Notes: generated by a model not told the origin, from the sequence alone. Shown: positions 1 to 16,453, counted from the stretch's first letter. The stretch is DNA of 64,000 nt from Deltaproteobacteria bacterium (GCA_009929215.1 SAAX01000003.1:1-64000); one strand, 5' to 3'. Translations and numbers: made by a program.

Positions 1-37
1 ACAGCAAAACGCGGGTTAACCCGGAAAGGATAGAGCC

Positions 38-514
38 ATGTTTTTTGAAGCCAAGGAAGTGACGCCGCAAACGCTGCTTTCAGAAGTGCAGCAGCTGGCT
101 AACGCCAAATACCGTTTTGTGACCATGTCGCAGACTGTCATGGACGAGCACACGCTGCGGCTTTTTTACCACTTTGATGTAAACCTCACCATGTCTGACC
201 TGCGTCACAACGCCGAACTGTGCGTGTGGGAGCCCACAGACGCAAAAGGTATGGTGCACCTGCGCATGGATGTGAACAAGAAAGAGCGCATCCCCAGCAT
301 CACGCCCGTATACTTCTGCGCCGTGCTCGTCGAAAACGAAACGCAGGATCAGTTTGGCGTGCGTTTTTCGGGTCTGCCCCTCGATTACGAAGGAGCCATG
401 TACCTGGAAGGCGAGGTTACCCATGCGCCGTACTTTACCATGACCACGGTTCGGCGGCCTGCCGCCAAGGCCGAGGCCGCCAAGGATGACACGGCCAAAG
501 GAGAGAAGGCATGA
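38..514 (+). CDS. echD: Ech hydrogenase subunit D-like (NADH dehydrogenase 30 kDa/NuoC-like)
   Basis: 158 aa ORF directly upstream of and overlapping a group 4 hydrogenase large subunit ORF; position and size fit EchD. Confidence 0.75.
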   Translation: MFFEAKEVTPQTLLSEVQQLANAKYRFVTMSQTVMDEHTLRLFYHFDVNLTMSDLRHNAELCVWEPTDAKGMVHLRMDVNKKERIPSITPVYFCAVLVENETQDQFGVRFSGLPLDYEGAMYLEGEVTHAPYFTMTTVRRPAAKAEAAKDDTAKGEKA

Positions 515-1593
515 GCAACCGCACAACCGTGATTCCTTTCGGGCCGCAGCACCCGGTGTTGCCCGAGCCACTGCACATCAAGTTTGTGGTGGAAGATGAA
601 ACCGTGGTGGGCGCTGTGCCGCAGCTGGGTTTTGTGCACCGTGGGCTTGAAAGCCTGGTGCGCCTTAAGGACTACAACCAGATGGTTTTTGTGGTCGAGC
701 GTATCTGTGGCATCTGCTCATGCATCCATGCCAACTGCTACTGCAACGCCATCGAAGACATGATGGGCATTACGGCCCCGCCGCGTGCCCAGTTTTTGCG
801 GGTAATCTGGTCTGAGCTGCACCGTATCCATTCGCATATGCTGTGGCTTGGGCTTTTTGCCGATGCCTTTGGCTTTGAAAGTGTGTTTCAGCAGTTCTGG
901 CGTATTCGCGAGCATGTCATGGACATCTGCGAAGCCACGGCGGGTAACCGCGTTATTCTGTCGGTCAATGTGGTTGGCGGCGTGCGCCGCGATCTCAGCC
1001 CCGACCAGATTCGCTGGATGCATGGCCGTCTGGACGAGCTTGAAAAGGGCATGCGCGAGCTTACCCGCACCATGCTTGACGACTACACCGTGCAGGAACG
1101 CACGCGCGGCATCGGTATTCTGAGCAAGGACGATGCCCGCCTGCTCGGCGCAGCCGGCCCGACCCTGCGTGGCAGCGGCTGGGAAATTGACGAACGCATG
1201 CACGGCTACGCAGCCTACAAAGACCTCAACTTCATTCCCGTTGTTGAGCACGATGGCGACTGTTACGCCCGCTCAAAGGTGCGTTTTTATGAAGTGCTGC
1301 ACTCCATAGAACTTATCCGCGAAGCCCTGAACCGCCTGCCAGAAAGCGAGTTGACCGTAAAGGTTCCTGGCAATCCCGAAGGCGAATCGGTGTTCCGTGT
1401 AGAACAGCCGCGCGGCGAACTGTTCTACTACATACGGGCCAACGGTACCAAGCATTTGGAACGCATGCGCGTGCGCACGCCAACCTTTGCCAACGTGCCG
1501 CCCCTGCTGCACATGCTGCCGGGCTGCAAACTGCCCGATGTGCCGGTTATCGTGCTGAGTATCGACCCGTGCATCTCATGCACAGAGAGGTAG
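511..1593 (+). CDS. echE: Ech hydrogenase large subunit (NiFe, group 4)
   Basis: N-terminal RICGICSCIHA and C-terminal DPCISCTER Ni-binding CxxC motifs; ATG overlaps the preceding stop. Confidence 0.9.
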   Translation: MSNRTTVIPFGPQHPVLPEPLHIKFVVEDETVVGAVPQLGFVHRGLESLVRLKDYNQMVFVVERICGICSCIHANCYCNAIEDMMGITAPPRAQFLRVIWSELHRIHSHMLWLGLFADAFGFESVFQQFWRIREHVMDICEATAGNRVILSVNVVGGVRRDLSPDQIRWMHGRLDELEKGMRELTRTMLDDYTVQERTRGIGILSKDDARLLGAAGPTLRGSGWEIDERMHGYAAYKDLNFIPVVEHDGDCYARSKVRFYEVLHSIELIREALNRLPESELTVKVPGNPEGESVFRVEQPRGELFYYIRANGTKHLERMRVRTPTFANVPPLLHMLPGCKLPDVPVIVLSIDPCISCTER

Positions 1594-1596
1594 CCC

Positions 1597-1980
1597 ATGT
1601 ATATGCTTCCTAACGTGCTGCGCAACCTTTCGGGCAAGCCCGCTACGCGGCTGTATCCCCTGGAAGAGCGCGAACCATTCCCCGCCTACCGTGGCGTGAT
1701 CACCAACGATGTTGCAACGTGCATATTCTGTAACTCCTGCGCCAGAGTATGCCCCACAGATGCCATTACCGTGGATGCAAAGGCCGGAAAGTGGAATTAT
1801 GATCCCTTTTTGTGCGTGTACTGCTCTGCGTGTGTGGAAAAATGTCCCACCAAGTGCTTGCAGCAGGAGCCTGTGCACCGCAAACCATCTGTCAGCAAGT
1901 TTGTGGTGCAGCGCACAGGAACCCCCCGCGTTAAAAAAGCCAAGGCCGAGGCCAAGGGCGGGGAAGAAACCGAAAAGTAA
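1597..1980 (+). CDS. echF: Ech hydrogenase 4Fe-4S ferredoxin subunit
   Basis: Two 4Fe-4S motifs (CIFCNSCARVCP, CVYCSACVEKCP); immediately follows echE. Confidence 0.88.
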   Translation: MYMLPNVLRNLSGKPATRLYPLEEREPFPAYRGVITNDVATCIFCNSCARVCPTDAITVDAKAGKWNYDPFLCVYCSACVEKCPTKCLQQEPVHRKPSVSKFVVQRTGTPRVKKAKAEAKGGEETEK

Positions 1981-1989
1981 GTGAGAGAT

Positions 1990-2021
1990 AAAACAAAGGG
2001 CCTTTTCAGGCCCTTTGTTTT
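1990..2021. terminator. Bidirectional intrinsic terminator between echF and zur
   Basis: AAAACAAAGGGCCTTTTCAGGCCCTTTGTTTT hairpin with A/T flanks between convergent genes. Confidence 0.85.
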
Positions 2022-2122
2022 GGAGTGCTGACCGCGAACGGACTTTTTACTGCTCACACCGCCTATTTGCCGGGCGGGTATGGCGGCGCGTGTTCCCGAG
2101 GGGGAACATGTACCGCCATTTT

Positions 2123-2626
2123 TCATAGGGAACAGTTCTGCTCCTGCTGTTGTGCACAGCCGGGGCAGGTGCCGGTAAGCTCCACCGTGTCGCCCTGCAA
2201 CTGAAAACCCTGTCGCTGCATGGTTGCAACGATAGTCTGGTACAGCTTGGGGTCGCTTATTTCCCTACTCTTGCGGCAACGTGGGCATACCAGCATGAAA
2301 ACTGGCGGGTGGCGTACATAGCATGTTTCCGGGCAGGTATCCGTACAGGCCACATACGCGTTGAGTGTGCCAACCTTATGTACCAACCCCTCTTGCTGCA
2401 GGTAGTCGAGCGCCCGGTAAATGCTGGCAGGGGGCAGAGTCTTTGGGGTGGTAAGGCGCAAGGCGTCCTGAATGTCATAGGCTTTGACAGGCATTTGCGC
2501 ATTGAGCAAATACTCAAGCACCAAGCGGCGCACCCGCGTAAGGCGTAAGCCCCTTTGGGTGCAAAGCGTGTCTGCCGTGCTGGCTGACTTTGGCTGCTCA
2601 GTATTGTTCGGTTTGGTCTGTTGCAT
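2123..2626 (-). CDS. zur: Fur-family regulator, Zur-like
   Basis: Fur fold signature SIYRALDYLQQEGLVHKVGTLNAYVAC, two CxxC pairs (CPRC, CPGC); last gene of a putative zinc operon. Start chosen at MQQTKPNN. Confidence 0.75.
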   Translation of the reverse strand: MQQTKPNNTEQPKSASTADTLCTQRGLRLTRVRRLVLEYLLNAQMPVKAYDIQDALRLTTPKTLPPASIYRALDYLQQEGLVHKVGTLNAYVACTDTCPETCYVRHPPVFMLVCPRCRKSREISDPKLYQTIVATMQRQGFQLQGDTVELTGTCPGCAQQQEQNCSL

Positions 2627-3260
2627 AGGGTTCCACCGCCACCGCCTTGATGCGGTAGCCCGCATCGCCGATGTCGCTTTCTGATTTTTCTATTTCAAGC
2701 TTGCCGTACACCATCACGGTGTCCATCATCTGAATCCCTGTGGGCTTTTCAAGAATAACGTAGACAATCTGGTTGGCTGGCGGTGGTGGCACGTGGATGC
2801 ACGCGCCGAAGTATGGCACAAGCAAAAATTCCGAAAGCTGGTCACCGCCAAGAAAGTCAAGTGGAGCCACAAAGCCGGCAATGCTCACCAGCTTGCCGCC
2901 AAGTTCCTTGTTGGCGGGTGCGTTGCTCCACATGGCCTGAAATTCCTTAAGTGCTTTGTCTGCCCGTGGGTCGTCGTCGTTGAACTGGTCAAAATTGAAT
3001 TTGTCAAAGACCTTGGCAGGGTCCCACGAGGCTGGAATAAGGTTTTCCCATGTAATTTCAGTGTATTTTCCGCTCTTTTTGGCATCTGCAGCCTTGGCCA
3101 GATCTTCGCGCGTGGGTTGCCACTGCTCAGACTGTTGCCGCGTAAAATCGTCAGTAAGGGCCAGGGCCGTGGCGCTGTGCCAGCAGCACAGCAGCACCGC
3201 CAATAGGCAGATGATGCGCCTTGAAGCCGTGGTAGGTATCATGCTGGTTCCTTTGATCAT
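2598..3260 (-). CDS. DUF3299-type periplasmic protein
   Basis: Signal peptide; SIAGFVAPLDF...LLVPYFGACIHVPPPPANQIVYV typical of DUF3299; overlaps neighbours. Confidence 0.75.
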   Translation of the reverse strand: MIKGTSMIPTTASRRIICLLAVLLCCWHSATALALTDDFTRQQSEQWQPTREDLAKAADAKKSGKYTEITWENLIPASWDPAKVFDKFNFDQFNDDDPRADKALKEFQAMWSNAPANKELGGKLVSIAGFVAPLDFLGGDQLSEFLLVPYFGACIHVPPPPANQIVYVILEKPTGIQMMDTVMVYGKLEIEKSESDIGDAGYRIKAVAVEPYATDQTEQY

Positions 3261-4528
3261 GCCGAAGCATTGAGGCCATCAGCCAAACTTATGCGGTAGG
3301 CCCGCCATGCGGGGATCAAGCCAGCCAGAAAGCCTGCGGCATTGATTGCGCCCAGTAGTTGCCATTCGGTCGTTGTGGGCCAAGAGAGGGAAAGGGACAG
3401 GCCAAAGCCTTGCGCCAGCACAGGGCTGAAAATTGCCAGCAGGGTGCCCGTGAGGGCGGTTCCTGCCAACGTGCCCGCCAGCACCAGCAGCAGACTTTCC
3501 AGCGAAAGCAGTGCCACAATGTCCTGTGGGCTGGCGCCAGCGGCCCGCAAAACAGCCAGTTCGCGTCTGCGCTCGCCAAGTCCCGCAAGTATTGTTGCCA
3601 CAAGGCCCGCCAGTCCGGCCACAGTTACCAGCCACGAAAGAATACGCAAGGCGCTTTCGCCCGTGCGCAGCAAGCTCCACAACTGGTCAAGGGCCACTCC
3701 GGGCATCACGGCCATCAGGGCTTCCTGCTTGTCTGCGTTGATTTCGCGTTGGGCGGCAAACACTCGGGCGCGGTTTTTCAGCCCAACCAGTACAGCTGTT
3801 ACGCTTTTGGGCGTCAGGTTGAATTTGTTTACCTGGTCTGGGCGCACATGAAACCCTGGTGTTGGCGCGCCGCCCTGCCAGTCAATATGAATGGCCTCCA
3901 TGGCGGCAAGGCTTATGAACAGACCTCGATCTACAGGTGTGCCCGTGGGGGCCAGTATGCCACACACTGAAAAGGGTTTGTCGGCATGCAGGGTGAGGTG
4001 CGAATCGCCCGTGCCGTGGCTCAGCAGCACCCTGTCGCCCAGCTTGTAGTGTTCCTTTGCTGCCACTTCTGCCCCAAGAACAACATCAAAGATACCTTCA
4101 AACTGCTGGCCCTGCGCAAACTGCAAGGCAACATGGCGGCGATACTGATATCGGGTAAATATGTCTGGTGTTGTGCCCACCACCGCAAAGCCCTTGTGCG
4201 AATCACCAAGCGACACGGGGATGGTCCAGGCTACGTCATTGCGCTGGGCTATGCGCTGCGCGCTGTCCCAACCCATGTTGCTGGAAGCCTTGCCCATGTG
4301 GAATACGGCATAGAGCAGCAGTTGCAGCTCGCTACCGCGCGCGCCTACCACCAGATCAGTGCCTGAGACAGCCTGCACAAAGTTTTCGCGCACCTGGGTG
4401 CGCACGCGTTCCATGCCCAGAAGAAGGGTAGTGGAAAGCGCAATGGAAAAGACCACAAGGCTCAACGTGCCCCTGCGGTTCCATGCGCTGGACAGGGCCA
4501 GCGCCAGCAAAAATTTGTAACGCGTCAT
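3257..4528 (-). CDS. ABC transporter permease (FtsX/MacB-like)
   Basis: N-terminal TM followed by MacB-like periplasmic domain and C-terminal FtsX TM block; 4-nt overlap with ATPase gene. Confidence 0.85.
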   Translation of the reverse strand: MTRYKFLLALALSSAWNRRGTLSLVVFSIALSTTLLLGMERVRTQVRENFVQAVSGTDLVVGARGSELQLLLYAVFHMGKASSNMGWDSAQRIAQRNDVAWTIPVSLGDSHKGFAVVGTTPDIFTRYQYRRHVALQFAQGQQFEGIFDVVLGAEVAAKEHYKLGDRVLLSHGTGDSHLTLHADKPFSVCGILAPTGTPVDRGLFISLAAMEAIHIDWQGGAPTPGFHVRPDQVNKFNLTPKSVTAVLVGLKNRARVFAAQREINADKQEALMAVMPGVALDQLWSLLRTGESALRILSWLVTVAGLAGLVATILAGLGERRRELAVLRAAGASPQDIVALLSLESLLLVLAGTLAGTALTGTLLAIFSPVLAQGFGLSLSLSWPTTTEWQLLGAINAAGFLAGLIPAWRAYRISLADGLNASA

Positions 4529-5322
4529 GCCTTTTCACCCTCACACAGCCTGTTTATGTGGGCAAGGCTGACGTGCCGGGCAAACGCACCCGCTAGTGCG
4601 GCATCGTGGCTTACAAAAAGTAGGCTCGACCCGGCTTCAGCGCACTGGCGCAGCAAGATATGTAGAAAGCCTGCGCGGCGGTCGCTATCCAGCGCAGAGG
4701 TTGGCTCATCGGCCATGATCAGCGGGGGAGAACCCACCAGTGCGCGGGCGGCGGCAACCCGCTGCTGCTGCCCCACAGAAAGACGGGCCACATTCTGGTC
4801 CCACAACTCACGGCCAAGGCCCAGACTTTCAAGCAGGCGCTGGGCTGACTGTTCCGGGCTTCCGTCTATTTCAGTGGCTCGCAGTGCCCGTCCAGCAGAA
4901 AATCGACATGGCAGCAACACGTTGTTGAGCATGGAAAGGTGCGGAATAAGATTAAACTGCTGAAAAATAAGGCCGATGGAATCTCCACGCAGGGCATCAC
5001 GGGCAGAGAGTGGCAAGGTGTCCATGCGCGTACCGTTGATACATACGCTGCCGGTAGCTGGTTGCAGAATACCGGCAATCAGGCTGAGCAGGGTGCTCTT
5101 GCCGCCGCCGCTAGGGCCGGAAAGAAAGAGCGTTTCCCCTTTCGCCAGGCAAAACGATGGTATGCACAGGGTTGGTTGAATCTGACCTGGCCAGAAAAAT
5201 GTAATATCCTCAAGTGCTACCGCCTGCCCGGCTGATGCAGATCCGGTTGCTGCTATTGGAACTGCATCATTTGAAGCGGGTGGCAGAGGAAATTGCACCA
5301 CAGATTGTACGGGGGCTACCAT
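4525..5322 (-). CDS. ABC transporter ATP-binding protein (LolD-like)
   Basis: Walker A SGPSGGGKST, signature LSVGQQQRVAAARAL, Walker B LIMADEPTSALD. Confidence 0.92.
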   Translation of the reverse strand: MVAPVQSVVQFPLPPASNDAVPIAATGSASAGQAVALEDITFFWPGQIQPTLCIPSFCLAKGETLFLSGPSGGGKSTLLSLIAGILQPATGSVCINGTRMDTLPLSARDALRGDSIGLIFQQFNLIPHLSMLNNVLLPCRFSAGRALRATEIDGSPEQSAQRLLESLGLGRELWDQNVARLSVGQQQRVAAARALVGSPPLIMADEPTSALDSDRRAGFLHILLRQCAEAGSSLLFVSHDAALAGAFARHVSLAHINRLCEGEKA

Positions 5323-5888
5323 TTGAGTGTGTGCGCCTTTGCGTTCAGTTCGGCAGCATGCTGGCCTGTGGGGCTCAAAATCTGAACACGCAGCTCATGC
5401 AGGGCTGGCCAAGAGGAAAATAGGGCCACATCCATGCCATTCAGTGCATCGGGCTTGGCGCATTCAAAGATAAAGGAAGCGTCCAAATCCGCGTGTGCGT
5501 CCTCGGCAGCGTGGCCCGCATGGTCTGCATATTCTAACTTTGCGGGCTGCTGTGAAGTACCGACGGAAAGCAGGTCTGCGGGTAGGGCTGCTGATTGGAG
5601 CGTTACCTTTTTCAGACGGCACTGAGCAGCAACAGAAAGGATAAAAATTTTGTCTGCCCGGTGCAGGGTGGCGGCCATGTTTTGCACTGCCTCACGCTGG
5701 GCAGGGGTGGAGGGGGTGTGTTCAAAGGGCAGAGCATTGGCCAGCGGGCTTTCAAGGTCGATGCTGACAGTTGTGCCGTCCACGGCCACATTAAGTCGTG
5801 CCGCTCCGTGCTCGTGCGGGCCGTGGGCCAGGGCAGGGCTGGTAGCCAGCAGTGCGGCGCAGGCCGCCAGAAGTATCGTGTTTTTCAT
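5316..5888 (-). CDS. DUF2796-type periplasmic protein (ZrgA-like)
   Basis: Signal peptide; HGPHEHGAARLNVAVDG N-terminus, histidine/acidic-rich middle; start of zinc-type ABC operon. Confidence 0.75.
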   Translation of the reverse strand: MKNTILLAACAALLATSPALAHGPHEHGAARLNVAVDGTTVSIDLESPLANALPFEHTPSTPAQREAVQNMAATLHRADKIFILSVAAQCRLKKVTLQSAALPADLLSVGTSQQPAKLEYADHAGHAAEDAHADLDASFIFECAKPDALNGMDVALFSSWPALHELRVQILSPTGQHAAELNAKAHTLKW

Positions 5889-5942
5889 TATATCTCCTGA
5901 GTAAAAAAAGTACTGTTTTCAGCTAGGTTGGCGCTAATAAAT

Positions 5943-5965
5943 GAAATGATATATTGTTGCATTTA
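5943..5965. promoter_or_regulatory. Candidate Zur box upstream of zinc operon
   Basis: GAAATGATATATTGTTGCATTTA: GAAATG-N11-CATTT inverted repeat matching recalled Zur consensus GAAATGTTATANTATAACATTTC, about 55 nt upstream of the DUF2796 start. Confidence 0.7.
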
Positions 5966-6068
5966 TGTCAACAGGCAGAAAAATGGCCTGCCAGTGCACA
6001 GAGTAAAATGTGCGTAGCAGGCCACTGATAAATATAATCAGCTAATAAGACTGAATAATATTGGCGGA

Positions 6069-7328
6069 TTACGGCAGTTGGCGGCCCTGGCGCTTCCAGT
6101 GGGCAAGGCGCAGCCTGTCAGCAAGCATGGAGAGCCCGCACAGGGCTATGGAAACGGCGGTGGCAACAAAAACTCCACGATAGCCGAATCCTTCGTACAT
6201 AACGAGCCCCCCAATGATGGGGGCAAACATGCCGCTGGAATCAAAGGTGGCCATCATCACATTGGAATTGATGGAGCGCGTGATGGGTGTTGAGCGGTCG
6301 TAGACCATGGCTGCCAGCAGGGGGTAGAGCAGCCCCAGCCCCAGTCCGTAAAGAAGCGTCAGGGGAATAAAGGCCCACAGCGGCCCCCAGGCAAGCCCCA
6401 GCATGCAAAATGCCAGCAGCGCGCTGCACAATATGGTAATTTTATGGCGGGGTAGGGTATCAAGCCTGTTGCTGCCCACCAGCCGCACCAAAATGATGGT
6501 GAGCGTGTAGGTGGTAAAAAACCATGCCGGGTGCGCACCGGTAACAGAGCACAAGCCCTTCATAAAAAAGATGGCCAAAACGGTCATGATGCTGAAGGTC
6601 AGGCAGCTCATGTACACAAAGAACAGGCCCGAATGGCTCACCGCATGCCACAACTCGCGGCCAGACATGCCGCCCTCTGCCTCCTGGGCCATCTCGGGCG
6701 TGTGCAAACGTGGCGCCAGCGGGATGAGCATGAGCAGCGAGGGAATGGTCAGCAGAGCAGTAACGGCAAAAAGGTGGGTTTCGCCGCCCAAGAGGGGCAG
6801 TATCTGTTCGCCCACAGCGGGAATAATGGAGTAGGGCAAGAGCAGGGTGAGCGAAAAAATGGCAAAACCACGGGCGCTCTGTCCAGCGGGAATGCAGCTG
6901 ACCAGCACAGAAACCGTGCAGCACGAGAACACGGCCAGCGAAATGCCCTGCACCACGCGCAACAACAGAACCAAGCCAATGGTGTGCGCTCCGCCCACAT
7001 AGGGGTAGGCCAGCATTACGCCGCCCGAAACAAGTATGGAGGCAGCCATGGGCAACAGCTTGCCGCGACGCAGCAAAACCACGCTTGCCACCTGCCTGAA
7101 AATCAGCACCATGACAAACATGGAAGAGAGCAGTATTCCGCGCCAGTTGGGGCTGACAGAAAGTGCCTCTAGCCATTGCTCAAAACAGTAAAAAACGGCC
7201 ACAAAGCTGTTGCAGAACATGGTCATGCAAAACAGCAGAACAAAATCACGGCTTAAAAGCGTCTGCGGCGGCTCAGAAAAGGCAGGGCCTTTTGGGGCGT
7301 GGGCAGACGACGCAACTAGCGACGGCAT
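6069..7328 (-). CDS. MFS transporter
   Basis: 419 aa, about 12 hydrophobic segments, MFS-like loops. Confidence 0.85.
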   Translation of the reverse strand: MPSLVASSAHAPKGPAFSEPPQTLLSRDFVLLFCMTMFCNSFVAVFYCFEQWLEALSVSPNWRGILLSSMFVMVLIFRQVASVVLLRRGKLLPMAASILVSGGVMLAYPYVGGAHTIGLVLLLRVVQGISLAVFSCCTVSVLVSCIPAGQSARGFAIFSLTLLLPYSIIPAVGEQILPLLGGETHLFAVTALLTIPSLLMLIPLAPRLHTPEMAQEAEGGMSGRELWHAVSHSGLFFVYMSCLTFSIMTVLAIFFMKGLCSVTGAHPAWFFTTYTLTIILVRLVGSNRLDTLPRHKITILCSALLAFCMLGLAWGPLWAFIPLTLLYGLGLGLLYPLLAAMVYDRSTPITRSINSNVMMATFDSSGMFAPIIGGLVMYEGFGYRGVFVATAVSIALCGLSMLADRLRLAHWKRQGRQLP

Positions 7329-7405: not shown

Positions 7406-9970
7406 CTAATGATATTCGCCATTGATAAACTTGGTGGCATAGGCCTGAACAGCCGCGTCATCCACCATGAGCATATCCATCTGGCGGGTCATTATCAGGA
7501 GTCGTCCCAATTGGTCCAGGCGCGCGCACAGCTCATGCCTGGGGTATTTTTGGTAACGTGCGCGCAGTCTATCACCCGTTATCTCCACGGTAAAGCCCAG
7601 CTCTTTGAGGATAAGTCCAATGCAGTTAACGCGGCGCACGCGCTGAGTGTTGGCGGCTGCGCCGCCTGCAAATTCAAAGCGTATGTAGTTTTTGCTCAGG
7701 GTTTCACCGCACCAGCAGTCAAGAATGGCGTAGTGATAGCCCACGCGTGAAGAAAAGTTGAGGTAGCGGTCTGAAATAATGGCATAGCTGCGTTGCCCAA
7801 AGCGCGAGCAGCTCTCCTGATTGCCGCCAATGGCCGTTTGCCCCATGACAGAAAGAAAACCGCGCATGTTTACCGGCCTTGGACCGCTGGCCTGAACCGC
7901 TGGGTTGAGCATGCCCTCAATCACGCACCTGAGCGGCGTGCTCAGCACGTCGTTGGGCGTAACCTGCCGCGATTCGGGGTTACGCAGGCCGCCACCAAGG
8001 TCAATAATGTGCAGGTCTAGCGGTACAGTGCAGGTCAGCTTGCTGGCAACACCGGCGCAGTTTTCGGTAACGCGGTCTGAAATCTGGAACATCTGTGTAT
8101 AGCTTAGCTCATGCACATAGCGCATTATGTCGTGCAGCGAGGTGCAGTGGCGGGGCGTAAAGGTATCTGCGCGCGGGTCCACGAGGTGCAGGGGCAGAAT
8201 ATAGGGGGCAATGCGGCGCAAAAGCACCAGCGCCGGGCTGCTGGGCTTGGCCTGAGGGCGCACCAGCCGCAAGGTCAGTAGTTCCTGTACCTCGCCATCA
8301 AAAACTCTGCCCGACAGGGCGTCCACGGTTACCACCTGGTCTTCGGCAAGAATGCTGTTTGCTCCGGGCAGATTCATGATTGTGGGTACGCCAAATTCGC
8401 GGCAGATGGAGGCCATATGCCCAGTGAGGCTGCCTGTTTCAGCTATGATGGCCGAGGCGCGGCGCATGGCCGCCATGGCATTGGGGGATGAATGGGCCAG
8501 CAGCATAACCGCACCTTCGGGAAAGTGCGTCATGTCTTCGCCTTCGCCCACATGCACAATGGGGCCGCAGCCAACACCCCGCGCGGCCACATCTCCGCCA
8601 GAGAGCAGGGGGCGCAAGTGGCGCAGGGCCGGTGCAGAGTGCTCTTCAGATGCGTTGTCTAGCCCCATAGGGCGGGTTTGCAGCAGCACAATCTGGTCGT
8701 CTTCGTCAACGGCCCATTCCATGTCCTGCGGGTATTGGTAGTGTCGCTCCAGTTCCATGACCATTTCGGCCAGCCTGCGCACCTGATCATCGCTGAGGCA
8801 GGGCACATCTCGCAGAGCGTCGGGCACGGGCTCAAGCACATTATCCACAAGCCCGCTCTTGCTGCGGGTAAGGCGCAGCCGCACGGTTTTGCGGGCAATG
8901 GTGGCCATGGTGATCTTTTTTGTGGCGCGCGACACAAGCCACTGGTCGGGGGTTCCCGATCCGTCCACAACCATTTCGCCAAGCCCCCACAGGCCGTTGA
9001 TGACCGTAGCGTTAGAACGCAGATCTACCGGATGGCGCGAAAAAGCCACGCCAGCGGCCTTGGCCCGCACCATTTCAACGCAACACAGGCCCATGCCCGT
9101 CGCATCCAGGTCGTAGCCGTGTTCCGCGCGGTAGGTCAAAGCTCGGGGCGAAAACAGGCTGGCAACCACCCTTTTAAAGGCAGACAAAAAATCCTGGTGG
9201 GTCACGCCCAAGATGCTGCGGTACTGGCCCGCAAAAGACTGTACGCCGTCTTCAGCAATGGCGCTTGAGCGCAGGGCCACCACCACGTCCGCATCCTTGC
9301 CAAAGGCTGCGTTCCATTCGGTGTTCAGGGCCCTCACAACCTCTTTGGGAATGGGAGCTTCCAAAACAAGCTTCTCAACCTGCTGCGATATTTCCGCAAT
9401 GAGTGCGGGTTTGTCGGGGTCGATAGATTTGAGCAATTTGAAAAGATTTTTGAACAGCCCCGGCGTGCGCAGCAAAAAATAGCTGCCCGCGCGTATGGTA
9501 ATGGCAAAGCCGCGCGGCACCGGCATGGCCAGCATGTTGCGCAATTCGCCCAGATTGGCGGTTTTACCGCCCACGCTGTAGGCCATGCTTGAATCCACCT
9601 CTGAAAGAGGCAGGGTAAACTGCGGTACATCGCCAGTGGCAAGCTGGTCGAGCTCGTGCTCGATGCGCGTGGCAATGGCGTTAACGGCTGTGCCCAGCGA
9701 AAGATCGCACTGGCCAGACATTTCGCTTAGGGTCGAAGCCATGCGCTCGCAGTGAAAAATGGCACGGCGGGCCTGTTTGCGTACCTCGCTGGTTTCCATG
9801 TGCTTGTCACCGCGCAGGGTTGCGTCCAGCCCGGCCATTACACCTGCAAGATCAGCATTGGCCTGTAGCAAATCCTTAAATGAGGCATAGCGCTTGTTAA
9901 AGGCCTCCATTGCGCACTCGCGGCTCACTCGCGGGGCAATGCCAAACAGTTTTTTCAGCAGAGAGGCCAT
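7406..9970 (-). CDS. PEP synthase/pyruvate phosphate dikinase-like protein with non-canonical C-terminus
   Basis: PPDK_N-like VGGKTANLGELRNMLAMPVPRGFAIT and phosphohistidine swivel TGSLTGHMASICREFGVPTIMN; the usual C-terminal PEP-utiliser TIM barrel is not apparent. Confidence 0.75.
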   Translation of the reverse strand: MASLLKKLFGIAPRVSRECAMEAFNKRYASFKDLLQANADLAGVMAGLDATLRGDKHMETSEVRKQARRAIFHCERMASTLSEMSGQCDLSLGTAVNAIATRIEHELDQLATGDVPQFTLPLSEVDSSMAYSVGGKTANLGELRNMLAMPVPRGFAITIRAGSYFLLRTPGLFKNLFKLLKSIDPDKPALIAEISQQVEKLVLEAPIPKEVVRALNTEWNAAFGKDADVVVALRSSAIAEDGVQSFAGQYRSILGVTHQDFLSAFKRVVASLFSPRALTYRAEHGYDLDATGMGLCCVEMVRAKAAGVAFSRHPVDLRSNATVINGLWGLGEMVVDGSGTPDQWLVSRATKKITMATIARKTVRLRLTRSKSGLVDNVLEPVPDALRDVPCLSDDQVRRLAEMVMELERHYQYPQDMEWAVDEDDQIVLLQTRPMGLDNASEEHSAPALRHLRPLLSGGDVAARGVGCGPIVHVGEGEDMTHFPEGAVMLLAHSSPNAMAAMRRASAIIAETGSLTGHMASICREFGVPTIMNLPGANSILAEDQVVTVDALSGRVFDGEVQELLTLRLVRPQAKPSSPALVLLRRIAPYILPLHLVDPRADTFTPRHCTSLHDIMRYVHELSYTQMFQISDRVTENCAGVASKLTCTVPLDLHIIDLGGGLRNPESRQVTPNDVLSTPLRCVIEGMLNPAVQASGPRPVNMRGFLSVMGQTAIGGNQESCSRFGQRSYAIISDRYLNFSSRVGYHYAILDCWCGETLSKNYIRFEFAGGAAANTQRVRRVNCIGLILKELGFTVEITGDRLRARYQKYPRHELCARLDQLGRLLIMTRQMDMLMVDDAAVQAYATKFINGEYH

Positions 9971-10067: not shown

Positions 10068-12767
10068 TTACCTGCCAATGACCACATACCGCTGCGCCGG
10101 GCCTCGCCCTTCCTTACGAACCAGCCCTTGCTGAACCAGCAATTGCAGATCGTATTGGGCGGTGCGCATGGAAATATCCTTGCCTGCCAGGGTTTGATAT
10201 TCCTGTCGGCTGATACTGCCTGCGGCGGCAATGGTCGGCCACGCGTCGATGATGCGGCGATTGAGTTTTTCTGCCGCGCTGAGCCCATGCAGCATGTCGC
10301 CTTGCTGGATGGCGGGGGCAGGCTGTTGCCCGGGCGCTGCAAATTCGCTCAACTCCTGCAAGCCCGCTGTTTCAGCGGGCTGATCTGGCTGCCTGTCTGC
10401 CCACTTGTCTGGTAGACCATTTGCCCTTGCGCCGGAATCTGCCGGAGGGGTAGAACAGTTGCCCGGATCGCAGGGGGTAGCCTGCGGATTGCGCGAATCC
10501 AGCACTGGGGTTGCGATATTTTCACCCTGTATTGCTTCGCCCGCCCCCTGAATTGCGTGACCTAGCTGAATATCTTCTGCAAGAAGAATGCCGCCTTCGC
10601 AAAAAGTGAGCGCCCTTGTGAGGGTGTTTTTGAGCTCGCGAACATTCCCGGGCCAGTCGTAGTCCATCAGCTTTGCCATGGCTCCCTTGCTGATCTGTGG
10701 CATGACCGAGGGCAGGGCAGCGGCAGAGACGCCAGCCTCGGCCTTGAGCCGGGCCTTGGCCTTGAGTGCCTCTGAGAGAAAATACACCGTGAGCGAAGGA
10801 ATGTCAGACTTGCGGTCGCGCAAGGGCGGCGTGTTGATGGTGATGACCGCCAGGCGATAGTACAGATCTTCGCGGAACGAGCCCCTTTGGGCGTCGTCGA
10901 TCAACGAGGCGTTGGTGGCCGCGATAATACGCGTGTCAAAGGGCACATCTTCGTCACTGCCAAGCGGGCGCATGCGGCGGGTAGAGAGCGCCCGCAGCAA
11001 AGCCTGCTGCACCTTGGGAGCAGCGTTGCCCACCTCGTCAAGCATGAGCGTTCCGCCTTGTGCCGTTAAAAAAGCCCCCTTGCGCGGGGCCCGCGCCTCG
11101 GTAAAAGCCCCTTTCACATGGCCAAAAAGGGTATCCATAAGCAAATTCTCGTCCAGCGCTCCACAATTGATGGTGATAAACGGCCCCGCGCTTCTGGCGC
11201 TGAGCCTGTGGATTGCCTCGGACACCAGTTCCTTGCCCGTACCCGTTTCACCCACCACCAGCACATCAGCCATTACCTGCGAAGCTTTGCGCACATTGTC
11301 GCACAGGGTAAGCATGGTGGATGACGTGCCAATAAGGCCGTTGACGGGCAGGTCTTCGGGATGGGGCAGGTCTGGCACTGGTTCGCGCAGTGCCAGGGCG
11401 TCGTCTTCTGCTGCCCGCTGGCGGCGGGCCTCTGCGGCATGACGTAAGCGGTCCAGCAGGGTGTTTATGCCGCCCCTGAGCCGTTCAAGTTCGCGCGGCA
11501 TCTGTGGCAATTCAAGGTTGCCGTCTTCGCCTGCTGTGTTGCGGAGTTCAAGTTCGTCCGTGATGGCATTGAGCGAACGGCTTGTCTGGCGTGCCAGCCA
11601 CCACAGGCTCAGGCCCAGCAGCAGTGTGCCGCCAACAAACGCACCTATATATATGCCCATGAGCTGCACGCCTGTGCGGGTGGTGGTAAAACTGGTGTCC
11701 AGCACTGCCAGCCCGCCCAGAACAACAGAGTCCTCCTGCGAAATTGGACTAAAGAAAACAGGTACATAGCTCACCCTCTCAACGCGCATCTGGCTGTTGC
11801 TCCACAGCGTGGTGTTTTCTGCAAGGGCAATCTGTCCATTTTTGCCATCCTGAACGTCGGATACCATGTTCCAGTAATTGAGGTGTTCCGGGCCAGGCCG
11901 AAATGCCGTGTTGAACCCCGGCCTGCCAAAATCGCCGGAAAAACCGGCCCGCACCGCGTCTGTTGCCAGGCTGCGCTGGGGCAAACCAGCGTCTGGAACT
12001 TCAGACTGAAAAAGCATCCAGCCGTCGCGGTCAAAAAAAAGCGTGCGCACGCGTACGTCTGTGCCAGCGGCGGCAATGGGGGCATTGGGGGCAGAGTAGG
12101 CCGAAACTATGTCGCGAAGTTCCCGCAAATCCAGCGAGAGCATCAGGTAGCCCACAAAAGAGCCATCCGCGTCTTGCACCGGGGTAGAAAAGCGCAGCAC
12201 ATGCAGGGAGATATTTTGAGTGCCGCCCTTAACAGGAACCATAGAGTAGGTGACTTCTACTGGCTGCGCAACGCTCACATGCCCAATACGGTGCTCACCG
12301 GCAATGCCGTGGAAGGGGCCAGTAGGGCTGGCCAGAGCTTGGCGCATGGGCACATTGACGATTTCACCATCAGAATTGACCAGCAGGTAGCGCTTGTCGG
12401 GGGTAAGACCTTCAAAGGCAAGCTCCCTATAGCGTAAGCCCCCGGCCTTGGCGCGAAATTTGAGCCGGTTGGTCATTTCGCTCTGTTCCATGGAGCCAGC
12501 CGCGAGGATAAGCAGCTGATTGCGCGTTTCTTCAAGCGCCTGCTCCAGTGCAAGGCGCATGGCCTGTGACTGGAGCTGTGCATTGCGCGCAATTGCGCGA
12601 TCGAGAATGCCCTCAATGCTGCTGCCGGTAGCCGTAAAAATAATCAGCAATACCAGGGCTAAAACCGGTAGCCCAAGCATGAGCATGCGGCTTGCCAGGC
12701 TGCGATTCATGAAGAAGGTAGCGAACTCGATGGAGTTGCCCTGGGGAAGTGTTCTGTGTAAGCGCAT
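10068..12767 (-). CDS. Membrane-bound sigma-54-dependent transcriptional activator (periplasmic sensor-HAMP-AAA+)
   Basis: Two TM segments flank a Cache-like periplasmic region; Walker A VGETGTGKE, GTLMLDEVGNA, YDWPGNVRELKN. Start chosen at MRLHRTLPQG. Confidence 0.88.
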   Translation of the reverse strand: MRLHRTLPQGNSIEFATFFMNRSLASRMLMLGLPVLALVLLIIFTATGSSIEGILDRAIARNAQLQSQAMRLALEQALEETRNQLLILAAGSMEQSEMTNRLKFRAKAGGLRYRELAFEGLTPDKRYLLVNSDGEIVNVPMRQALASPTGPFHGIAGEHRIGHVSVAQPVEVTYSMVPVKGGTQNISLHVLRFSTPVQDADGSFVGYLMLSLDLRELRDIVSAYSAPNAPIAAAGTDVRVRTLFFDRDGWMLFQSEVPDAGLPQRSLATDAVRAGFSGDFGRPGFNTAFRPGPEHLNYWNMVSDVQDGKNGQIALAENTTLWSNSQMRVERVSYVPVFFSPISQEDSVVLGGLAVLDTSFTTTRTGVQLMGIYIGAFVGGTLLLGLSLWWLARQTSRSLNAITDELELRNTAGEDGNLELPQMPRELERLRGGINTLLDRLRHAAEARRQRAAEDDALALREPVPDLPHPEDLPVNGLIGTSSTMLTLCDNVRKASQVMADVLVVGETGTGKELVSEAIHRLSARSAGPFITINCGALDENLLMDTLFGHVKGAFTEARAPRKGAFLTAQGGTLMLDEVGNAAPKVQQALLRALSTRRMRPLGSDEDVPFDTRIIAATNASLIDDAQRGSFREDLYYRLAVITINTPPLRDRKSDIPSLTVYFLSEALKAKARLKAEAGVSAAALPSVMPQISKGAMAKLMDYDWPGNVRELKNTLTRALTFCEGGILLAEDIQLGHAIQGAGEAIQGENIATPVLDSRNPQATPCDPGNCSTPPADSGARANGLPDKWADRQPDQPAETAGLQELSEFAAPGQQPAPAIQQGDMLHGLSAAEKLNRRIIDAWPTIAAAGSISRQEYQTLAGKDISMRTAQYDLQLLVQQGLVRKEGRGPAQRYVVIGR

Positions 12768-12894
12768 GGTGATCCCCTGATTTGTGCAAAAAAGCGCAAT
12801 CCTGGAGATGATTGTAAAAAACATTCCCGTCCGTGACAAGATTTTTCGCGCAAAAAATGGAAAAAAGGCGCAATTACAGGCAAAAATCATGCAA

Positions 12895-12910
12895 TGGCAC
12901 AGGCTTTGCT
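12895..12910 (+). promoter_or_regulatory. Sigma-54 (-24/-12) promoter
   Basis: TGGCACAGGCTTTGCT matches TGGCAC-N5-TTGCW exactly, between the divergent sigma-54 activator and the 13027 operon. Confidence 0.85.
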
Positions 12911-13026
12911 ATAGCTTTCACATTCGAGGCAACAAGGCGAGCCATCCTTGGTTCTGGGAGAGCTCGCATAGTGGATGACTGGCACTGTGGATGAGTGGAG
13001 ATGTCAACATTGACGAGGAGGAAGTT

Positions 13027-13332
13027 ATGAAAAAGATGCAAAGGCTCTGGACATGGCTTGCGGGCTGCGCGCTGATGGTAGCGGCATTACCGGGTATGGC
13101 CCTGGCCGCTGGCGGCGGCAAGGTTGCTAACGTGGTTGTGGTAGCCGACACGCGCAAGCTTGACGGTATACTGTATTGGTGGGCTGAAATGTACAACGAA
13201 AGCCACTTCTTTTTTGCAATTCTGACCATGGCCATCATCCCTGTAGTGGGTTGCATACTTGGCTGGCTGGCAGACATTGTCATGACCCACATGGGCATCG
13301 ACCTCAGGCACCGCGAACTTTCCGAGAAGTAG
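13027..13332 (+). CDS. Small membrane protein of sigma-54 operon
   Basis: Signal/TM peptide (MKKMQRLWTWLAGCALMVAALPGMALA) plus TM segment; SD GAGGAGGAAG upstream. Confidence 0.7.
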   Translation: MKKMQRLWTWLAGCALMVAALPGMALAAGGGKVANVVVVADTRKLDGILYWWAEMYNESHFFFAILTMAIIPVVGCILGWLADIVMTHMGIDLRHRELSEK

Positions 13333-13348
13333 AAGGAAGGAGGCAAAT

Positions 13349-14413
13349 ATGGACTGGTTGTATATTTTGATGCCCATTTCCGGCGTGTTCATTTTCTGGC
13401 CGGGCCTCGTTATTCTTGGGTTGGGCGTGGGTATTATCGGCGGCTTTTTCGGCATGGGCGGCGCGTGGATGGTTACCCCCGGCCTGAACATTCTCGGTTT
13501 CCCCATGGCCTTTGCCATTGGTACAGACGTTGCGCAGATGGCGGGTAAATCGCTTATCTCCACCATGCGTCACGGCAAGTTTGGTAATGTTGACTACGGC
13601 TTGGGTCTGACCATGCTGGTTGGTACCATCGTGGGCGTCGAAGTCGGCGCGCAGATGGTCATGTGGCTGGAACGCCTGGGCTCTGTTGATAAGGTCGTGC
13701 GCTGGCTGTATGTGGTGCTGCTTGTGTTGCTGGCTTGGCTTGTATTTCATGATATCGCCGCCCGTCGCAAGAAGGAACGCGAAGCCAAGGCCCAGAACAA
13801 GGAACTTGACCAGACTGTCACCGGCGTTGACTGGGCCTCGCGCCTGCACGCCATCAAGATTCCGCCCATGTTCCACTTCAAGCAGGCCAACATCACCTGC
13901 TCTGCATGGCTGCCCATCTTCGTCAGCTTCTTCACCGGCTGGCTGGCTGGTATCCTCGGCATCGGCGGCGGTCTTATCCGCATGCCCGCCCTGGTGTATC
14001 TTGTGGGCTGCCCCACCCATCTGGCGGTGGGTACGGACCTCTTTGAAGTCGCCATCTCCGGCCTCTACGGCACGGCTTCGTACGCATACAAGGGCCGCGT
14101 GGAACTGCTTGCCGCCCTCGTTATGCTGTGCGGCGCTGCCATCGGCGCGCAGATCGGCGTTGTCGCCACCAAGTATGTGAAGGGTTACGGCATCCGCTTT
14201 GTGTTCGGCCTGGCCGTTCTGGGCTGCCTGGTTTCGGTTCTTTGCAAGCTGATTGAAGCTGAATTCCCGGCTTGGGGCTGGCTGCTTGGTCCGGCTGCTA
14301 CCATCGACGTGCTTGGCTTCGTGACCGCTATCTCCCTTTACATCACCGTCAAGATGGTTCAGGGCGCCAAGGCGGAAATTGCCGCCAAGAAGAATCAGCC
14401 CGCAACCAACTAA
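13349..14413 (+). CDS. TauE/SafE-family anion exporter
   Basis: Duplicated glycine-rich GIIGGFFGMGGAWMVTPGLNILGFP / GILGIGGGLIRMPALVYLVGCPTHLAVGTDL motifs typical of TauE/SafE (DUF81). Confidence 0.9.
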   Translation: MDWLYILMPISGVFIFWPGLVILGLGVGIIGGFFGMGGAWMVTPGLNILGFPMAFAIGTDVAQMAGKSLISTMRHGKFGNVDYGLGLTMLVGTIVGVEVGAQMVMWLERLGSVDKVVRWLYVVLLVLLAWLVFHDIAARRKKEREAKAQNKELDQTVTGVDWASRLHAIKIPPMFHFKQANITCSAWLPIFVSFFTGWLAGILGIGGGLIRMPALVYLVGCPTHLAVGTDLFEVAISGLYGTASYAYKGRVELLAALVMLCGAAIGAQIGVVATKYVKGYGIRFVFGLAVLGCLVSVLCKLIEAEFPAWGWLLGPAATIDVLGFVTAISLYITVKMVQGAKAEIAAKKNQPATN

Positions 14414-14426
14414 GAGGAGACACGCC

Positions 14427-15023
14427 ATGAAGATTCGTAATCTGGTACTGATGCTGGCGATGGCCTTCTCGGTCGCACTGCTTACGGGCTGCAACTTTGA
14501 CGGAGGCGTTGAGCAGGGACGTTGCGTGGCCTTTGATGCCAACGCCAAAACCCTCACCATAGTGGTGGACGTAACCCATGACCAGTTTAATCCGCACTAC
14601 AGTGGCGGCACGCATACCTTCAAGTTGCCCGTTGACCAGCAGGATATGGGCCCAGTGCCCACCCCGGGCGGCCGCCTGATGATCGATACTGCCAAGAACA
14701 TGGTGCTCGTGTACGACCAAAAGTCCAACAGTGTGCGCGAAATCCCTGTGCAGTTCACCGATGTGGAAAAGAACGTTGGCCCCAACCATCCCAAGGTCAA
14801 GGGCAAGACCTTCCCCATGATCGACAAGGAACAGCAGACCGTGACCGTGTATTCTGGCCGCCAGAAGGCATTGATCACCTTTAAGGTTCCTGCTGAAGCT
14901 CAGGACTTCCCGCCCTACATGTGGACTGCTGGCGACGAAATGCGCATCGCCTTCCGCAATGCCGACAAGGCACAGGCCATGCGTATCATGAACGTGAGCA
15001 AGACCAATATCTTCAAGAAGTAA
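14427..15023 (+). CDS. Lipoprotein, DUF4881-like
   Basis: Lipobox LLTGC after signal peptide; SD GAGGAG; within operon. Confidence 0.7.
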   Translation: MKIRNLVLMLAMAFSVALLTGCNFDGGVEQGRCVAFDANAKTLTIVVDVTHDQFNPHYSGGTHTFKLPVDQQDMGPVPTPGGRLMIDTAKNMVLVYDQKSNSVREIPVQFTDVEKNVGPNHPKVKGKTFPMIDKEQQTVTVYSGRQKALITFKVPAEAQDFPPYMWTAGDEMRIAFRNADKAQAMRIMNVSKTNIFKK

Positions 15024-15051
15024 ACCCAAAGGGTGACTACCCCCACCCTGC

Positions 15052-15083
15052 GCGCTGGAGCGGTATCTGCGCCGCTCCAGCGC
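15052..15083 (+). other. Strong intercistronic stem-loop
   Basis: GCGCTGGAGCGG-TATCTGCG-CCGCTCCAGCGC, 12-bp perfect stem, no downstream T tract. Confidence 0.8.
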
Positions 15084-15121
15084 ACCTCCCCGGAGTGGGG
15101 CAAAAACTTGGGAGAGCACAG

Positions 15122-15433
15122 ATGAACAGCTACCGTCAGACCCTTTATTCAAGCATTATCAGAGTGGCAGCCAACATTATAATGGTGGCAGCCGTTTTTG
15201 TGGGCATGTATCAGTCGGCCCACAGTGCAGGGGACTCGGAACTGGTATTTTGCGCATGGTTCTTTGGCATCACCGTGCCCGTGTGGGCGGGAGCCTTTTG
15301 GCTGACCAGAAGGGTACGGCAGAAGTATCCTGCGGAGTTCCAGAGCCTTATTGAACTGCCTCGGCTTGGGCAGCGGCTGGTAACCTGGAATGTGGCCGAA
15401 GAATCCGTGTGTCCTGTGCTTGTGCGCAGATAG
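15122..15433 (+). CDS. Small inner-membrane protein, unknown function
   Basis: Two TM helices; SD GGGAG; operon context. Confidence 0.65.
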   Translation: MNSYRQTLYSSIIRVAANIIMVAAVFVGMYQSAHSAGDSELVFCAWFFGITVPVWAGAFWLTRRVRQKYPAEFQSLIELPRLGQRLVTWNVAEESVCPVLVRR

Positions 15434-15487
15434 GCTAAAAATATGTCGTGCGTGATGACCACCCCACAGGCAAGCAGGAAGGAACCC

Positions 15488-16390
15488 ATGGGTGATTTTG
15501 TTAACTCCAGGGGATGGCAAAACTGCCTTCAAACCCGCATGCGGCAACGCTTTTGGGGAGCGCTCTGCGCATTGCTGATGGTTTTTGTCATGCTGGGTAT
15601 GTTTGACGGACTGCAAGGTCTGGCTCGGTCTGGCGCCGATGTTATTGAAGTGCTGCCCGGCGGGAGCGCGGCAATCTCTGGCCCGCTGACCATCAAAAAT
15701 CCTGTAAACAGCGACCTCAAGGCGCAGTTTACCCCCGAAAGTTCCGCCCTTGTTTATGATCTGGAAGGCTTTTTTTCTGGTTACTGGTTTGGCAACGGCA
15801 TGTGGCGCGCTGCCGTGCGCGCCGATGCGTATGCCCAGCCCGGGGAATACAGCCTTAAAGTTGTTTTCAGGGGTGCACCCGCCAGCACCACGCAAAATTA
15901 CAAGATTACAGTGCATGCCAACGATACTGCCATGCGCGCCGCCTCTACCTCATACTTGCGGCGCATTACTGGCTACAACCCCTTTGTACTTGCTGCTGGC
16001 TGCTGCGGCTTGGCCCTGCTGGTTGGTGTGGTAGTGTACCGTCTGGGTTGCAGCTACATTCGCCAGCTCACAACTCTCGGCTGCGGCGAGATCGTGCGTG
16101 TGCAGCCTCAATCGGGCAACGGTGCGCAAGCCCAGCCCGGTCACATCTGGTGTACGCTTTACGGTCTGCGCGCGCCTGCGGCTGGTACGCTGTGCGCAGT
16201 GTACGATGACCAGGGGGCACAGATTGGTTTGGCCCGTGCGGCCGAGGCCAACAAGGGTACGCTTGAACTGAATTTCGACTCGTTGTCCAGCCCGGCGGCA
16301 GAAGCCGGTGCAGCTTCTAACGCCGTTCGCCCCGGCTGCCTTGTCCAATTGCGGCCCCCCAAACCGCTCTCCTCCGGATTAGCCAGATAG
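15488..16390 (+). CDS. Membrane-anchored protein of unknown function
   Basis: TM segment, periplasmic region, second TM, cytoplasmic region; same operon. Confidence 0.65.
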   Translation: MGDFVNSRGWQNCLQTRMRQRFWGALCALLMVFVMLGMFDGLQGLARSGADVIEVLPGGSAAISGPLTIKNPVNSDLKAQFTPESSALVYDLEGFFSGYWFGNGMWRAAVRADAYAQPGEYSLKVVFRGAPASTTQNYKITVHANDTAMRAASTSYLRRITGYNPFVLAAGCCGLALLVGVVVYRLGCSYIRQLTTLGCGEIVRVQPQSGNGAQAQPGHIWCTLYGLRAPAAGTLCAVYDDQGAQIGLARAAEANKGTLELNFDSLSSPAAEAGAASNAVRPGCLVQLRPPKPLSSGLAR

Positions 16391-16407
16391 GCCGAACGGT
16401 CACCCAA

Positions 16408-16453
16408 GCGGCATGCACTTGGCGCGTCACCTGTGCATGCCGCATTTTTTTTT
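16408..16453 (+). terminator. Intrinsic terminator of the sigma-54 operon
   Basis: GCGGCATGCAC...GTGCATGCCGC 11-bp stem followed by T9. Confidence 0.9.

Follow-up and report, generated by a model that had tools for sequence, protein, structure and literature searches.

In Desulfovibrio vulgaris Hildenborough, a regulon consisting of the genes DVU0150-DVU0146 was predicted for the regulator DVU0151 by Kazakov et al. (2015) and named 'transmembrane transport' (PMC4641369). DVU0151 has a GAFSEA loop, which is listed as compatible with function, and no Fis helix; a winged helix is matched in its orthologues, and a long N-terminal region may hold a sensing domain not yet described (PMC4641369). 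For the D. vulgaris and D. alaskensis orthologues, only this 2015 paper was found under their locus tags, and literature searches returned no papers on DUF4881 and no experiment on this operon. A further described system is the 'nitrate cluster' DVU0251-DVU0245 / Dde_0597-0605, which contains TauE, kinase, receiver, and PPDK gene kinds. Loss of its TauE, receiver, or PPDK-like genes leads to nitrate resistance, for which a leaky thiosulfate transporter, i.e. uptake, has been suggested by the authors (PMC4001038).

The locus described here lies in a window of 64,000 nucleotides, by which the whole analysed stretch of DNA is meant. Five genes on the (+) strand follow each other from 13027 to 16390 with gaps of 16, 13, 98, and 54 bp and are followed by a strong intrinsic terminator (16408-16443, extended to 16452 in Table 1) with an outer stem of 11 bp (z -3.6). 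Gene calls, profile matches, and fold energy agree with a preliminary description of this DNA, in which a run of genes for a small TM protein, a TauE/SafE protein, a DUF4881 lipoprotein, and two membrane proteins was said to end at such a terminator. Sequence features and comparison with related loci also support its claim of a single operon, and indicate that this operon is conserved across sulfate-reducing bacteria. An Rfam search across the operon yielded nothing real. The nearest named TauE protein, from a D. desulfuricans assembly, is 92% identical, and the window belongs to Desulfovibrio.

The product of the first gene matches the NCBIfam family DVU0150_fam (NF040783) with 138.5 bits at a cut-off of 70. 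Because of this family name and the divergent activator, the locus appears to be an orthologue of DVU0151 together with DVU0150-DVU0146. As judged from the family profile and the published description, both systems have a divergent one-component activator with a GAF[TS]EA loop and a non-Fis winged helix, a sigma-54 promoter, a DVU0150-family first gene, and five target genes, while they differ in species and in the loop, which is GAFTEA here and GAFSEA there. The operon and its control are thus not new, since the regulon was predicted in D. vulgaris in 2015. The earlier remark that similar clusters lack an assigned role has to be qualified by the published 'transmembrane transport' regulon (PMC4641369). 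The system is ordinary in kind, and its interest lies in its phylum-wide conservation.

Table 1. Features of the operon, its divergent activator gene, and the adjoining PPDK-like gene (positions counted from the first nucleotide of the window)
Feature	Position	Strand	Basis or remark
PPDK-like phosphotransferase, downstream of activator	7406..9970	-	PF01326 and PF00391 only
DVU0151-type one-component sigma-54 activator: TM - periplasmic dCache (predicted) - TM - AAA+ (GAFTEA) - C-terminal winged helix	10068..12767	-	
Putative activator site TTGTGC-AAAAAA-GCGCAA, inverted repeat	12782..12799	.	~130 bp before the predicted transcription start
Putative activator half-site GCGCAA	12848..12853	.	half-site enrichment
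Putative activator half-site GCGCAA	12868..12873	.	half-site enrichment
-24/-12 promoter TGGCACAGGCTTTGCT	12895..12910	+	motif match and conservation
DVU0150-family small protein with signal peptide and a single TM helix	13027..13332	+	features read from sequence
TSUP (TauE/SafE) permease, 354 aa	13349..14413	+	PF01925, 151.5 bits, cut-off 32.6
DUF4881 lipoprotein, lipobox LLTGC	14427..15023	+	PF16222, 261 bits
Intercistronic hairpin, 13-bp stem, no U tract	15052..15083	+	-29.2 kcal/mol, z -5.8
103-aa membrane protein	15122..15433	+	kept within genus
300-aa membrane protein	15488..16390	+	periplasmic and cytosolic portions predicted from sequence
Intrinsic terminator, strong	16408..16452	+	-23.9 kcal/mol, then T9

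The exact TGGCAC-N5-TTGC element TGGCACAGGCTTTGC at 12895-12909 occurs once in the 64-kb window. It lies divergent from the activator gene, as noted before, and the first gene begins 132 bp past it. In shuffled sequence, the -24/-12 motif is expected 0.56 times across the whole window, and chance as the source of the element was rejected on the basis of this count and of its conservation among loci. The element is kept across the Desulfobacterota (~130 related loci), mostly 58-310 bp upstream and, where a UspA gene intervenes, usually upstream of this gene. It is located at most 330 bp from the first gene in 62 of the 65 distinct loci that have the activator and no UspA. The proposed sigma-54 control is supported by sequence and comparison alike, and transcription would start near 12921.

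The divergent activator gene most likely starts at 12767 with AGGGGA as ribosome site. The AAA+ domain of its product (PF00158, 194.6 bits) carries a GAFTEA loop, which is a variant of the GAFTGA-type loop, and a GAF[TS]EA loop and a winged-helix motif are common to the orthologues. With a winged-helix-like C-terminus and without the Fis-type helix-turn-helix typical of its class, the protein is an atypical member of the sigma-54 activators. It shares the AAA+ domain and lid with NtrC-type activators, but differs from these in its membrane-anchored dCache sensor, the GAFTEA loop, the winged helix in place of the Fis helix, and the absence of a receiver domain. The view of the protein as a one-component envelope sensor agrees with sequence and comparison. 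From the sensor-HAMP-AAA+ architecture that had been proposed, the periplasmic sensor and the AAA+ domain can be retained; HAMP matches 5 of 48 orthologues and not this protein.

The putative inverted-repeat site upstream of the promoter also adjoins the activator's own start, and its 18-bp pattern TTGTGC-N6-GCGCAA has three occurrences in the genome. Three TTGCGC/GCGCAA half-sites are located within 128 bp in the window (Poisson p 0.0014). Across related loci, 69 upstream regions with activator contain 142 half-sites versus 41 +/- 7 expected (3.4-fold), and 50 regions without activator contain 20 versus 13.6 +/- 3.4 expected, figures that are indicative because related sequences are not independent. 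The half-sites are likely to be recognized by the activator.

In five Desulfovibrio assemblies (L099, L100, L101, L103, L104) there is no detectable trace of the activator and the TGGCAC motif is lost. The core TTGC[TC]AT...TTTCACAT remains recognisable in these loci, and TATAAG follows 17 bp after TTGC[TC]A, which corresponds to a sigma-70 promoter arrangement. Here, the changed promoter is found ~170-200 bp before DVU0150 with the -12 TTGC now within a -35, and a distance of 429-474 bp separates the PPDK-like gene from DVU0150. Three further loci (L102, L105, L150) have neither activator nor element, and one (L134) is without activator, yet keeps a weaker element. There is thus an apparent switch from a sigma-54 to a sigma-70-like promoter where the activator gene has been lost. 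This change supports the pairing of activator and promoter better than any evidence from a single genome and amounts to a naturally occurring test of how the two are linked.

The AF2 model of the sensor region, built with 48 orthologues, has a periplasmic two-module fold (pLDDT 84) with dCache chemoreceptor domains as best Foldseek matches (E down to 5e-9). The profile dCache_1 (PF02743) matches 38 of the 48 orthologous sensors; in the sensor of the window it reaches 18.8 bits, which is under the Pfam cut-off of 45. As modelled, the sensor is a dCache domain. The ligands of the matched domains vary and include amines, amino acids, indole, and lactate, and the ligand cannot be named from the fold because the best matches disagree. 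Three arginines of the aligned segment (R177, R258, R275) are invariant in all 48 sensors, which would suit an anionic ligand.

DUF4881 is encoded in 54 of 395 genomes of the phylum with one copy each, two of these being weak matches, and the gene order DVU0150-TauE-DUF4881 is kept in nearly every one of them. Related loci show the module in other Desulfovibrio as well, as stated in the preliminary description. Conservation is highest in the permease, which shares 69-94% identity with 16 relatives from across the phylum and has a mean column identity of 82% compared to 55% for DUF4881. In many other families, the neighbouring genes encode UspA, histidine kinases, receivers, and NtrC-type regulators. 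A dsrA gene above cut-off is present in 49 of 52 module carriers versus 139 of 343 non-carriers (Fisher p 2e-14), an association that is confounded by shared descent. One module carrier with a genome rated complete (G297, locus L053) has no convincing dsrA. In locus L089 (5828-10630), which lacks a recognisable TauE, DUF4881 and a possible outer-membrane barrel protein lie opposite the activator, and a TGGTAT-N5-TTGCT element is located in between.

For the DUF4881 lipoprotein, a confident all-beta AF2 model was obtained (pLDDT 89), for which a fold search found no significant solved structure, the best matches being CusF-like small barrels (E 0.08). Sequence searches with TauE, DUF4881, and the sensor found no convincing relatives of solved structure. 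In profile searches, no family exceeded its own cut-off for the 103-aa membrane protein and none was assigned to the 300-aa membrane protein, which has same-place relatives with 23-87% identity in most loci.

Within 80 nt after DUF4881, 91% of 120 distinct loci have a stem with 9 or more bp (median 13), compared to 3% after TauE and 7% after DVU0150. These 3' hairpins occur phylum-wide and mostly without a T run. Their stem sequences differ among loci while the structure is kept, and within the genus a T-A pair of the window was seen by eye to be C-G in relatives. It is likely that the hairpin protects or ends the message upstream of it, which would lead to an excess of the first three gene products, and it could also have another role.

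The PPDK-like gene is separated from the activator gene by a gap of 97 bp, is possibly co-transcribed with it, and is followed by an MFS gene on the same strand. Its product resembles PEP synthases and PPDK in having an ATP-grasp and a phospho-histidine domain, the histidine being conserved, whereas a profile search found no PEP-utilizers_C (PEP/pyruvate) domain. Matches to solved PEP synthases stop near residue 566, and the C-terminal ~290 aa are without family. By its domain content the protein is not a normal PEP synthase and should not be called a pyruvate dikinase. The link of the system to a dikinase, which had been put forward earlier, is retained as synteny, with the gene near the operon in most relatives, but not as a link to an ordinary dikinase.

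We lean slightly towards an explanation in five steps, according to which the locus encodes a DVU0151-type, sigma-54-switched TSUP system for a small anion, with a sulfur oxyanion as the most likely cargo. At first, the periplasmic dCache domain of the membrane-anchored one-component activator would probably bind a small ligand. In the second step, the active activator would bind to the upstream TTGCGC-type sites and its AAA+ domain with the GAFTEA loop would open the sigma-54 promoter at 12895, leading to transcription of the five genes as one unit. These two steps are strongly supported by sequence and comparison, and the following three are inferred. In the third step, the TSUP permease may move a small anion across the inner membrane together with the small TM protein and the DUF4881 lipoprotein, the cargo most likely being a sulfur oxyanion in either direction. 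The hairpin after the lipoprotein gene would probably raise the first three products over the last two in step four and, finally, the PPDK-like phosphotransferase may modulate the system or act on the compound that is transported. The sulfur oxyanion is suggested by TSUP membership, the dsrA association, and the nitrate cluster, none of which is decisive. That dCache domains bind many unrelated ligands counts against this reading, and no sulfur-metabolism enzyme was recognised beside the operon.

The likeness to the nitrate cluster, which can be drawn by gene kind only, consists in a TauE-family permease and a PPDK-like protein and extends to the histidine kinase and receiver genes adjoining the present module in other families. 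In this window, however, the operon has no kinase or receiver gene next to it, and no DVU0150 or DUF4881 gene is listed for the nitrate cluster, which has a PtxB-like protein and a phosphatase. A second conserved TauE subfamily of ~420 aa (L185, 6233-7546, in the same genome as the window), which is present in 75 of 119 genomes of the family, was considered as the nitrate-cluster permease and set aside as a separate subfamily; relatives of this protein are encoded close to the present module in L047, L063, L065, L071, and L074.

Organic acids are favoured over a sulfur oxyanion by the co-regulation of two other TSUP/PSE-type transporters with lactate genes in D. vulgaris (PMC4641369). In the corresponding alternative, which is possible though doubtful, the dCache domain would sense lactate, pyruvate, or another carboxylate, the permease would carry the carboxylate, and the adjacent PPDK-like gene would provide a link to C3 metabolism. 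A lactate-binding dCache-based biosensor among the fold matches fits this alternative, whereas it is weakened by the missing PEP-utilizers_C domain, by the concentration of the module in dsrA carriers, and by the conserved neighbourhood, in which no lactate or pyruvate genes were recognised.

In sulfate reducers, predicting the TSUP proteins responsible for the transport of sulfate, sulfite, or thiosulfate has been called not feasible (PMC5840216). The phylum-wide identity of the permease, its lipoprotein partner in nearly every locus, and its own sensor could make a substrate assignable here. A bolder form of the sulfur-oxyanion reading, which we regard as rather unlikely, would be a TSUP-DUF4881 permease complex for a sulfur oxyanion, deeply conserved and specific to sulfate reducers, with its activity set by the phosphotransfer protein without PEP/pyruvate domain and its stoichiometry by the conserved hairpin. 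If true, this complex would add a previously undescribed transport machine to dissimilatory sulfur metabolism.

It is improbable that the permease is a strict TauE/SafE exporter of sulfite or sulfonates that shields the cell from sulfite. Although PF01925 membership and the association with dissimilatory sulfite reductase agree with such a function, the family name is weak evidence because the genome has 11 PF01925 genes, and the TauE cluster with a described phenotype points to uptake (PMC4001038). Genes for sulfonate catabolism are absent from the annotated neighbours (PPDK-like, MFS, YchJ, Pgi), and the protein shares the PF01925 domain with the TauE/SafE sulfite exporters but differs in its 354 aa with a long central loop and in its DUF4881 and DVU0150 partners. 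For the export function given in the preliminary description, the family name is the sole support. Least probable is an envelope sensory or homeostasis complex with no transporter, in which TauE-like, lipoprotein, and TM proteins would relay the envelope state, as conservation is by far highest in the permease, even if the module lies beside UspA, histidine kinases, and single receiver domains in many relatives and L089 combines activator and DUF4881 without a recognisable TauE.

Elsewhere in the same genome, a TauE-family gene is located beside a possible sensor protein and molybdate-ABC-transporter-like genes (L186, 6662-11919). On contig C205 of this genome, the genes for a PPDK-like protein, a receiver, a histidine kinase, and a second PPDK-like protein stand in a row (L189, C205:1-14000, 1-6754), which adjoins what look like flagellar genes.
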